From Xestospongia muta (lineage: Eukaryota; Porifera; Demospongiae; Haplosclerida; Petrosiidae), in contig OY848928.1 of NCBI GenBank assembly GCA_963693285.1, forward strand, positions 1 to 64,000: 64,000 bases of DNA, given 5' to 3'. The number at the start of each line of letters is the position of its first letter. Position 1 is the stretch's first letter. The notes under the pieces are model-generated. The model did not search any database. It was not told the DNA's origin and saw only the letters and a program-made list of their open reading frames with translations. This document shows, one piece after another, positions 50,457 through 55,398 of the stretch. The position numbers were made by a program, and so were the translations under genes.

Positions 50457-53400
50457 CTACAAAGCAATGCCAGAAGTTTTCATTCGAGAATCAATGAGAA
50501 CGTCTGCAATATCAGAACGACCAACATTTTCAAGATTCGTGACTAAATCTAAAAAGGAAGATGACTGCAAATGTGTAGAAAATAGCTCCGTAATTCGTTG
50601 ATCTGTGTCTTCCTCACAAGACGCAACTTTAATTTCTTCTATTTCTTCAGCTGTGACACCAATAGCATTACCAAGTGTACTCCATGAGTCTTGTAACGCC
50701 TCCGTAATTAATTGAATGTCATCAACATTGACAAATTCATCTAAAATATAAAATAATGACATTATCAATATCTCATCACATACCTTCACCGATGTCCTCT
50801 TGTACGGATATTGTAGGTTGTTGAATATCCTCACCAAACCATGGAGTGGCTAACAGAGGTAAGGTGACCTTTGACCCTAGCTCACACTCTAATGGCTCAA
50901 CTGGTGTATCAATACCTTCTAATATTATATAATGAAGGGACTGTGGATTGCAATAACACTGAATTCGGAGGTCAAAGGTCACATTAGGTAGCCACTGATG
51001 AAAGATATCAGTTATTGCTGGTTGTATAAACATGAGAACTGTCATTGCTGTTTCTGGTGATGGTAAACAAGATGATGTAGATGATTCTGATATAGAAGAG
51101 GAAGGTGTAGGATGATGTGAAGGGTGGAGAGATATTTTAAGTTTATCATCCTGTTTTTCAATCAATAACATTGTCATTGGATCCACCAGAAAACAGGCTG
51201 CAGATTTATAAAGAACATTACTGGAAGTGTAAAAACGTAGACAGCGAACTACAAGTCGATTAAATACGACTGTCGGAAAAGATCCTTGATGACTAAAAAA
51301 ATATAGTGGATCGATTAAAGGAAGAGAAATAGACTCAGGTAAGGACTCTTGAACTAATGACGGCACAATTATTGAGGTAATAGTAGGGGTAGTTGGAGGA
51401 GGAGGAGAAGGTGAATGAAAGGGTGACGTGAGAAGACTTTTTTCCGATTCCCATGGTGACAAGAGGCGGGACTGTGGTCCACACAATGCTATCAATTCCA
51501 GAGAATGTAGCATGAGTAAAAGCTCTCGTCTGTTTGACTTAGAACCAGACCATAGATGTTCTAGGAGTCGATCAGTTACGACACCATGTGACAAAACTAT
51601 CTGATGATCTGAAGTGAGATTTGGAGGGATATTGTGTTGATCTGCTAAACCATAGAGTAAGCCAATTTTTCTAAGAATCAAATGAGGATTTGTGATAACA
51701 GTGTTGAGTAACGGCTTGAAAGATGAATGATGTAGTATTACTAAATTATTGTGAAGAAATTTGAGAATTTTATCGACTTCTTCATCGCTTGAAGATAAAC
51801 AAACTTCCTTAATAATACTTTTAGCATCTGCTAATGGTATAAAGAACTGCTCAGATAGATTCTGAAAACGTCTGATACAACGTAACCATCGAAGAGGAAC
51901 ATTCAAATGGCATTTCTTCTTAATAATGTCGATGAGATATTTTTTAAGATCCTCAATTGTTGATTGGTCAAACAATGAAGAACAGCTAACAATAAAACTA
52001 CTAGATGCAAGGCAGATACTATAGCAACTGTTTTTGAGTGCTTGCCTGACTTCATCTAGTCTTTGCTTGGCAATCACAGCTGATGTATGCTTATCAGAAT
52101 GAGTACCTACTAACACAAGTGAAGTAGGAAAAGTAGCCATTTGATCAAAGATAGAGTTAAGGTTGTTGAGTAATTCTTTAACTATATCTCGATCATTGAA
52201 TGAAATATCAACAACAGCTAGCATAATGGATGATTCTGTTAGGAGAAAACTTGTAAAAAATGAGCTGCAGTCATAACTAGGAACATCAATTAGTTTTCCA
52301 TAGATTTCTGGTGGGAGTGTACCATTAACACAATCTCTAAGCTTCTCTTTTAATTTATCAAGGATGGTGTCAGGAATAGCTGATATGAAGGGTGGTTCAC
52401 ATGGAGAAAGAGGTGGAGATGGAGATGAAGGCATAACACTATCAGTTTGAAATAACGGAGGACTACTGTGATCATTTTGATGATGAGCTCGAGACGTTAA
52501 TGAACCTCGTCGTATCAACTTTGAAAGTCTTTTCTTAATAGATTTTTTTGTTTTGTGTGATGTTCCAGTAGCTACAGTATGTAAATCTTCTGGAATACTA
52601 CCACTACTTGGTAATGGTGGGTATGACTGACTCTCAACAAGCAATGACATACGTTGAGGACGTGAACGTGGTGGTAAAGGAGGAGGGACTCTTAAATGGA
52701 CACTAGAGGATCTCATACGACTTGGAGGTAGAGGAGGTGGTAGGGAGTCACTTTGCTTAAATAATTCATCAATAATGGTACGACATAGCTCGTTATCATA
52801 GGCTAATCCGTGGGTGGATGGTATCCATCCTCTATGACTAACAAGTTCACAATACTTTTCTGGTACATCAAATGTACCAGTGGGTGGTTCTCGATGACGA
52901 AATTCATTCCCATTAAAACATCGAATGAGGCTTGTTTTTCCAGCACTTTTAGGACCAACAACAATCAGATTAGCAAGATAGAGAGAAACAGAATTCTTTA
53001 ATGGAGCCTCTTGATAAATTTTTGAAGTCAAGGGCAGTTGTAGAAGCTCCTCCACTAACGATAATTAATGAGAGTTAGAGTGGGTGTGGTTATTATATTA
53101 CCTCTCTCATTAACTTTAATCATGGCTCGTCGATCAGGCAATGGACTGCTACAAGGAGTGCGTGACTCACCTTCATATAGAAACAGAGATAATATCATAT
53201 TCTAAAATATATTTATATACCAAAAGATTTGGACAACATTGCTTGAAGATTTTCAAATGTAGGTCTATCAACTGAATCAAACTGCCAACAAAGAGTCATA
53301 ATATCATATATAGCATTAGGACAACCATCAGGTGGATCCATTACACATCCATCTTCAAGTTGCTTCAATACATTCTCTGCTAACTAATGAAGTAGTAATA

Positions 53401-55398
53401 AGAGGGGCTACCTCATTATAAATACTCACTATTGAAGGATAGGGTACTCGACCATATGAATAAATTTCCCATAGGCAAATACCAAAACTCCAAACATCAG
53501 ATTTCTCAGAGAATATCTAAATTAACTATTAATAGAATAATCAAAGAAGAATAACTCACATTTTCTTTCAGAGCTTCTGGAGCTGTCCATTTTACAGGAA
53601 ATTTGCCTTTTTCATGAGCTACATGACTATCAGCTCTAATAGCTAGTCCAAAATCAGATATCTAAATGACAAACAGTTAGAAATGAAATGTGTATTTGAA
53701 TAAATGAAGTATTAAAATGGAATGAATGGTTCTAATACACTTATTTAAACTAACTTTAGCTTGACCATTGCCATTCAATAGTACATTCCTTGCAGCCAGA
53801 TCCCTGTAGTGATAATTGTGCTCAGATATGCTCAGTTAATTTTATTCACAAACCTGTGTACAAATCCTTGACTACTAATGTACACCATACCTTCACAAAT
53901 ATCTCTAAACAATACATTCCATTGATAAGATGGTGTAAAAACATAATGTACCTTGAATAACTTAATAGTTCAGTTTGTGCAACAACTGTACGACCTCGTG
54001 TTGCCAAATATTTACCCAGGGATCCCTAATTATGTGAGATAAATTAAAAAATAGGGAGGTGTAGTCAACTTACTTTAGCCATAAACTCCAGTACTATTTT
54101 ATTTAACGATAAGTCTTTGAAGACCACACCCACAAGCTGTACTAAATTTATGTGTCGAAGATGTCTATTTAAAATACATGCATACACACACATATATTGT
54201 GTAATGTCTTACGTCATTATGGCAGCCTCCTGGAGAAATCCTTGAACAGCTAAACCATCTTCTTTATCTTCAGGAATACTTTTAATAGCTACTTGCAAAC
54301 CACGATATGTTCCAGCATGAACCTCTATAAATAACATACTGACCACACCTATTTAATTACCATAGTATTACCTCCAAATTCTCCATGACCAACAGACTTA
54401 ACTAAATTGATGTCATCATTACATAGCCCCCAATCTATTGGAAGTATCCCTACTAATTAAAGTAATTATGAGAATAAAGCTTACAATTTTGAAGGGACTT
54501 TTTATCTACATAATACTTTAATGATTCTTGTGATGCAAGTGGTTGACTTAACGGTAGAGTAGTTGACTCTTCTTGATAGTACTAGAAATTAAATTTTATA
54601 CACAAGTAGTAATACACCCCCATACCTTAATGAGAGCTGGTAATGTGTCATAGTATAGTTTACCATCTATAGTTAATTGATGTGTAACAATATTCATAGC
54701 AATTAAATAGTGTTTGACCACACCTCCAGAACTAGTAATAAATCCAAATAACAACAATACTGTCTAATGTATTATTTACCAAACAGCCAATGCATAAACA
54801 CTGTCAGTTGATGATTGACTAGGACGAACTAAAAATTGTCCTTCACAAGATACATCCAATAATTTCTCAGCTTCTTCACGAGTAACACAATGAAACCATC
54901 TTTAAAATAATATATAAATAAATATAATAAATAATTTCACTTACAGCATTGGAAGTAATTGAACAGCAGGGCGTACTACTAAAGCAGAGAGAGGTACTTC
55001 TCCAGTTAATCCTTCTACATTTCTTACAATACAACTCTAAAAGGAACATACAACATAAAACAAACAGATACCATGCGTAGGACATTGTATACAATATATA
55101 GTGAATCTCAAGATATGCATTAGAAATAACAACTCACAGTTTCATTATGACTAATTACAGTAAGTATATCATCCTTTTCATAACACAATTCCTAATGTAA
55201 GCAAACATGTTGTGTTATGATAAGATATACAATTAATATTGTTACCTCTGTATTACTAACACCATTAGAAGATGCTAACTGACTAATAGCAGCTATACAT
55301 ATAGTACCTGGAAGTAAATTTATCTATATAATACACAAAATATAATAACATGATAAATACAATTGTGCAATGATTTACCTCCATTTTGTTCTCTAAAA
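50457..55398 (-). CDS. SH3-SH2-tyrosine kinase-Roc-COR-death domain fusion protein
   Basis: Predicted single minus-strand gene of about 1,300 residues. Exons from 55398 to about 53222 encode a Csk-like half: SH3 ([27 protein letters not shown]), SH2 ([27 protein letters not shown]), and a kinase with [47 protein letters not shown] and [15 protein letters not shown]. From MLSKSFG the frame continues through two short introns (53171-53221 and 53056-53102; standard GT-AG, in phase) and linker [20 protein letters not shown] into a 2.3-kb exon. That exon begins a Roc-type GTPase: [18 protein letters not shown] (Walker A), [11 protein letters not shown] at the switch II position and [10 protein letters not shown] at the G4 position. 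A COR-like region follows ([25 protein letters not shown]). A last exon (50457-50743) is a death domain, [20 protein letters not shown]. Inside the Roc domain is a Pro-rich, basic insert with PPPLPPSR and PPLPPRSRP. The true first exon was not resolved. If the kinase instead ends in unspliced sequence, this is two genes. Confidence 0.8.

Follow-up and report, generated by a model that had tools for sequence, protein, structure and literature searches.

The gene described here lies on the minus strand of a 64,000-nucleotide stretch of Xestospongia muta DNA (contig OY848928.1, positions 1 to 64,000; the window) and probably encodes, in a single chain, a Csk-type tyrosine kinase, a GTPase module like that of LRRK2 and DAPK1, and a death domain. 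The stretch was read on the minus strand, open frames of at least 60 amino acids were listed, and the exons were joined by hand in a script. The exons follow one another from 55384 down to 50457 (with 55323 as the start of exon 2 and 53383 as that of exon 16), and all 18 introns of this spliced model (35–101 nucleotides) have GT-AG ends and keep the frame. The order of the domains is SH3-like, SH2, tyrosine kinase, linker, Roc ([14 protein letters not shown]), COR and Death; kinase, SH2 and Death domain were recognised by Pfam profile, RocCOR and the death fold by structure. Sequence comparison very strongly favours one gene that yields one protein of this SH3-like/SH2/Csk-family kinase/linker/RocCOR/Death architecture. 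The spliced model, Pfam and structure agree on the in-frame run of the kinase exons into linker, Roc, COR and death domain that the original prediction had described. The parts of the gene are as follows.

50457..55384, minus strand: coding region of the whole fused gene, 19 exons, 1,327 amino acids (spliced model and Pfam)
54945..55384, minus strand: exons 1–4, degenerate SH3-like domain, residues 1–76, aligned to CSK 1k9a from residue 22, with an intron pattern like that of the neighbouring Csk gene
54576..54899, minus strand: exons 5–7, SH2 domain with FLVRPS, residues 78–154 (Pfam SH2 3e-12)
53221..54449, minus strand: exons 8–16, Csk-type tyrosine kinase, residues about 191–452 (Pfam 4e-82, motifs and tree)
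53171..53220, minus strand: join intron, 50 nucleotides, phase 1; if it is retained, the frame stops after SFGI
53102..53170, minus strand: exon 17, linker, encoding most of [10 protein letters not shown], which is kept across the join
50784..53054, minus strand: exon 18, Roc GTPase and COR in a single exon of 2,271 bases
50457..50740, minus strand: exon 19, Death domain and conserved C-terminal end RMKTSGIAL (Pfam Death 2.4e-5, over the cut-off)

The join between kinase and ROCO part is judged from its homologues to be real and conserved. A protein search with residues 470–1327 gave 11 proteins, two of which, Amphimedon queenslandica A0A1X7UVQ9 (P0003, 1,367 amino acids) and P0005 (a 1,216-amino acid open reading frame on a 4,027-base contig), carry a tyrosine kinase and were aligned over the whole region. 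In a search with residues 70–470, COR-A was present in P0003, P0005 and P0018 (a 1,308-amino acid open reading frame on a 4,100-base contig) among the best 120 of 3,785 proteins. The peptide SFGES[RK]TP bridges the join in all four fused proteins (the Xestospongia gene, P0003, P0005 and P0018). The single chain proposed at the outset is thus matched by the Amphimedon protein and by two homologous frames that run unbroken across the join and occupy 3.6–3.9 kb of 4.0–4.1 kb contigs; since 15 introns precede the join intron in the Xestospongia gene, these contigs are most simply taken to be transcripts. Compared with P0003, the linker was 62.5% identical and so is kept as coding sequence; the kinase reached 69%, the two parts of Roc 53–56%, the Roc insert 52%, COR 46% and Death 56%. 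Overall the kinase was the best-conserved part (69–72%, versus 46–56% for Roc, COR and Death and 41–52% for the insert). Because the join is kept in four sequences, a working gene is likelier than an accident of one assembly; an assembly artefact was ruled out by the identical join in three further sequences. No tyrosine kinase domain is listed in 8 of the 11 proteins of the first RocCOR-side search or in 19 of the 21 of a second, a list from which P0018 is absent; these kinase-less homologues cover the RocCOR part, as open frames or as models, and speak neither for nor against the fusion.

For the three introns around the join, the original prediction was right about GT-AG ends and frame, but its ends were one to three bases off (correct: 53171–53220, 53055–53101 and 50741–50783). 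The stop met on retention of the join intron is a TAA after SFGI, in place of the TAG that had been put 8 codons past MLSKSF. Transcripts ending after MLSKSF with a second start at the linker ATG had been named as the finding that would overturn the fusion; this arrangement is not favoured, as none of the three homologues has a methionine at that position. Other methionines do occur: P0005 carries one elsewhere in its linker, and nearer to the P-loop a methionine is present in each of the three homologues. The gap between kinase and RocCOR exons measures 166 bases, exon 17 included, and the poly(A) signals are indecisive: AATAAA was found neither between the two parts nor behind the gene, and ATTAAA lies at 53120 and at 50387.

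The kinase was analysed by profile, PDB match and tree. Pfam gave SH2 followed by PK_Tyr, both over the cut-off, and the top PDB match of the kinase was CSK (9.1e-101). Catalytic motifs are present in 4/4 fused proteins, the RGR motif is kept, and the segment between DFG and APE is free of tyrosine in all four as well as in the neighbouring Csk. FLVRxS of the SH2 domain was found in three of the four, P0005 being without that part. In a tree of 22 rows, computed without Mytilus P0037, a chosen row, the four fused kinases formed one clade on a long stem (97/99), and Csk and fusions grouped together (94/94), apart from the Abl and Srms rows; the fork inside this group is left open. PDB match and tree position thus bear out the Csk-like kinase first proposed and point to Csk as its nearest relative. 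The SH3 domain placed in the same chain aligns to CSK, but its Pfam SH3_2 match stays under the cut-off (0.25 here, 0.0034 in P0003).

Exon 18 is an open frame that exceeds chance, the probability of a stop-free run of 757 codons being about 3e-20 at its base composition. It carries Roc and then COR in a single chain, as ROCO proteins do, and the RocCOR-Death region has homologues (P0001–P0010) of 34–99% identity in the protein search. The following Roc features were located.

52930..52956, minus strand: Roc G1/P-loop GPKSAGKTS, with G33, G38, K39, T40 and S41 invariant in the 11 rows of alignment A2
52399..52743, minus strand: proline-rich disordered insert in Roc, with PLPPSR and PPLPPR (SH3-ligand-like) and the basic stretch [16 protein letters not shown]
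52279..52293, minus strand: Roc G3 LIDVP, with the Asp present and the glycine of DxxG gone (alignment)
52093..52107, minus strand: Roc G4 GTHSD; GTHxD in 12/12 proteins

Searched by sequence in the PDB, exon 18 yielded no convincing match (best expectation value, E, 0.35), and a profile search gave partial matches only, to Rab, LRRK2 and Roco chains (best 7e-6). Model quality was moderate for this exon, with a mean predicted local distance difference test score (pLDDT) of 65.3 for the top model and 50.9–54.3 for four others; within the insert pLDDT was <50 at model residues 104–218. PxxPxR-type motifs occur in 10 of 12 proteins and the basic stretch in 9. Exon 19 is predicted to be a death fold of six helices (pLDDT 80.5), whose closest folds are the death domains of FADD and RIPK1 (probability 1.00, E 0.065; none at E≤0.001). 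The Pfam search that had been suggested as a check thus returned SH2, kinase and Death over the cut-off but Roc below it, RocCOR being recognised through structure. In P0018 the C-terminal end RMKTSSIAL is retained but the middle of the Death domain is missing, through either an isoform or a true loss.

The architecture was compared with known Roco proteins, for which PMC6337361 gives three groups: LRR-RocCOR (LRR, leucine-rich repeat), LRR-RocCOR-kinase and DAPK1. Only in the DAPK1 group does a kinase stand ahead of RocCOR. According to the same paper DAPK1 shares with the fusion a kinase N-terminal to RocCOR, a death domain and the lack of LRR, but its kinase is a calmodulin-dependent Ser/Thr kinase, whereas in the fusion a tyrosine kinase of Csk type is combined with SH2 and SH3-like domains. 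Since DAPK1 has the same kinase-RocCOR-death order, that order is not new; what is new is the kinase type together with the SH2/SH3-like input, so the unfamiliarity of the architecture noted earlier holds for the latter only. The 14 Pfam families listed for the fused protein at E 1 or below include no ankyrin match. DAPK1 has ankyrin repeats, and membership in the DAPK group was ruled out by this and by the Csk-type tyrosine kinase. LRRK1 and LRRK2 resemble the fusion in having a RocCOR fold and a kinase in one chain and differ in that their kinase follows COR and that they carry LRR and WD40-like parts; LRRK membership was ruled out, as the fusion has no LRR before Roc and no kinase after COR. 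An LRRK-type gene is also present in the Xestospongia genome (locus L033). Csk itself is like the fusion in SH2-kinase order, lack of an activation-loop tyrosine, RGR motif, tree position and shared introns, but it ends after the kinase, where the fusion adds RocCOR and Death, and the SH3 of the fusion is degenerate.

A close counterpart is Amphimedon A0A1X7UVQ9, which aligned over its full length including the join and the C-terminal end (44% identity over RocCOR-Death; Roc and COR-A under the Pfam cut-off, no Death listed) and is public, labelled only 'Tyrosine-protein kinase'. A further kinase-first ROCO combination, with a different kinase, was seen in the coral Oculina patagonica (P0011): a kinase piece stands ahead of Roc-COR as in the fusion, but OSR1_C is in its domain list and identity is 26% over 30% of the query. 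OSR1_C suggests that its kinase is a WNK-type Ser/Thr kinase. PMC4104024 describes ROCO proteins of placozoans that carry CARD and death domains. In the main text of a holozoan tyrosine kinase survey (PMC8662651), the terms 'Roc', 'GTPase' and 'death domain' are absent. A description of the architecture was not found in the literature searched; an earlier listing in the Amphimedon genome paper or a kinase database is possible.

The origin of the fusion was approached through its neighbour and through the other RocCOR loci of the genome.

47585..49750, minus strand: ordinary Csk gene, probable duplicate partner, 475 amino acids, 15 exons, directly downstream of the fusion at a distance of about 700 bases

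Fusion and neighbour carry identical residues at 203 of 429 aligned positions, and of the 14 introns of the neighbour at least 11 lie at the same column and phase as in the fusion. Given adjacency and shared introns, tandem duplication is the simplest reading, and the origin as a whole is best read as an in-frame fusion of a tandem Csk duplicate with a RocCOR-Death cassette that took place before the four sampled lineages diverged. No close copy of exon 18 exists in the genome (1,704 bits versus 34 for the next), and its best relatives there reach 22–25% over about 200 residues. The genome shows a very large RocCOR expansion: with 150 out of 261 candidates scored, at least 150 COR-A matches are listed, of which 148 are over the cut-off; they form clusters on several contigs, and many occupy a single open frame of about 700–800 codons. 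The genome lists of tyrosine kinases and of COR-A omit the kinase exons of the window and exon 18, respectively, so that absence from either is uninformative.

Eight RocCOR loci out of the 150 listed matches were examined, and one kinase was found, of LRRK type, at L033; L036 gave two noise-level kinase-model matches (E above 0.5). Three downstream frames were checked by Pfam, with Death in L037 and L038 and nothing in L035, and the remaining ones were scanned with a small, weak local model of Death. By eye, phase 1 looks to be the start phase of the RocCOR exon at L036, L037, L038 and L040, as it is of exon 18, and the downstream donors appear to be in phase 0 at these four loci versus phase 1 in the fusion. 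RocCOR abundance, downstream Death frames and the like start phase make it likely that the second half came from a RocCOR-Death cassette of a kind that abounds in this genome. Several RocCOR exons at L035–L039 seem to have a Roc split by an insert, with the Pfam Roc match mainly on the later part of the profile.

Outside the fusion and its neighbour, a gene at about 55575–57200 (plus strand) seems to stand head to head with the fusion, its start about 190 bases from the first coding exon of the latter; its cysteine pattern looks RING-like. Beyond it, AT-rich repeated blocks of several hundred bases each were seen by eye at 57800–60400. The other Roc-model match in the window (32698–33045, plus strand) looks by eye like an ordinary Ras-like small GTPase.

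Csk is the usual off-switch of Src kinases. In the best explanation of fusion, origin and mechanism together, to which we give a probability of roughly 0.55, the SH2 domain would bring the protein to phosphotyrosine sites, RocCOR would act as a nucleotide-controlled dimer hinge, the death domain would be the docking plug for a death-fold partner, and proline-rich stretches of the Roc insert could hold SH3 domains of Src-type kinases. Assembly would concentrate or free the Csk kinase, which would phosphorylate Src-family tails, and a death-fold complex would thereby switch Src signalling off locally. Binding of a death-fold partner is somewhat favoured. That the protein would be a sponge-lineage ROCO with a Csk-family output kinase, a one-chain phosphotyrosine reader gated by RocCOR that plugs into death-fold complexes, has about an even chance; Src-family kinases as its substrate fall slightly short of that, and control of the kinase by the GTPase is put forward more tentatively.

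Several points weigh against this explanation. The SH3 domain is, by sequence, degenerate. Pfam Death is over the cut-off only in the Xestospongia protein, with none in P0003 and P0005 up to E 1 and a partial match under the cut-off in P0018, where the middle of the domain is missing. In DAPK1, kinase activity was not lowered by disrupted nucleotide binding (PMC4104024). With the inner fork of the tree left open, the Csk of the window is not identifiable as the closest Csk, and the shared introns could be old and common to Csk genes; the tandem origin therefore rests on adjacency and introns. The glycine of G3 is missing in 10 of 11 A2 rows, the Xestospongia gene among them (G3 of P0004 and P0010 was taken from the alignment and not from pattern search), and since it is absent, GTP hydrolysis may be weak and RocCOR a mere dimer module.

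This last point, together with the break of Roc by a disordered insert and a Pfam Roc score under the cut-off in the fused protein, leads to the rival that survives best, in which RocCOR would be a dead or nearly dead GTPase, a constitutive dimer or scaffold, and the protein a Csk dimer docked by its death fold and lacking a nucleotide switch. We consider it possible but not favoured: the residues of P-loop and GTHxD do not vary among the A2 rows, although P0138 has ATHSD at G4, and DxPG is present in P0018, P0136, P0137 and P0138 (Geodia barretti). The protein might also be an adaptor in innate immunity or cell death, its kinase targeting partners of RocCOR-Death proteins and not Src-type kinases. 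This would suit a genome with at least 150 listed COR-A matches and a Death frame just downstream at two sampled RocCOR loci (L037 and L038); we favour it slightly less, as Csk features with a role in Src recognition are kept and the kinase is better conserved than Roc, COR, Death or the insert. The last rival splits the locus into two adjacent genes, of which a short Csk-like one would finish within or close to the join intron and a RocCOR-Death one would begin from the linker ATG. It would accommodate the stop on intron retention, the ATTAAA at 53120 and the 8 of 11 homologues without a listed kinase domain, but is highly improbable in view of three homologues unbroken across the join with SFGES[RK]TP conserved, no methionine at the linker position despite others nearby, and just 166 bases between the two parts.

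If the protein is such a sponge-lineage ROCO with a Csk-family output kinase, the DAPK-like order would have arisen at least twice with different kinase families, and kinase-RocCOR-Death would be a reusable design. What a RocCOR module and a death domain do to a kinase in the same chain is an open question for LRRK2 and DAPK1, of which a Csk-type kinase in the DAPK1 position would be an independent natural test. The protein would also tie the control of Src to death-fold signalling in an early animal lineage.
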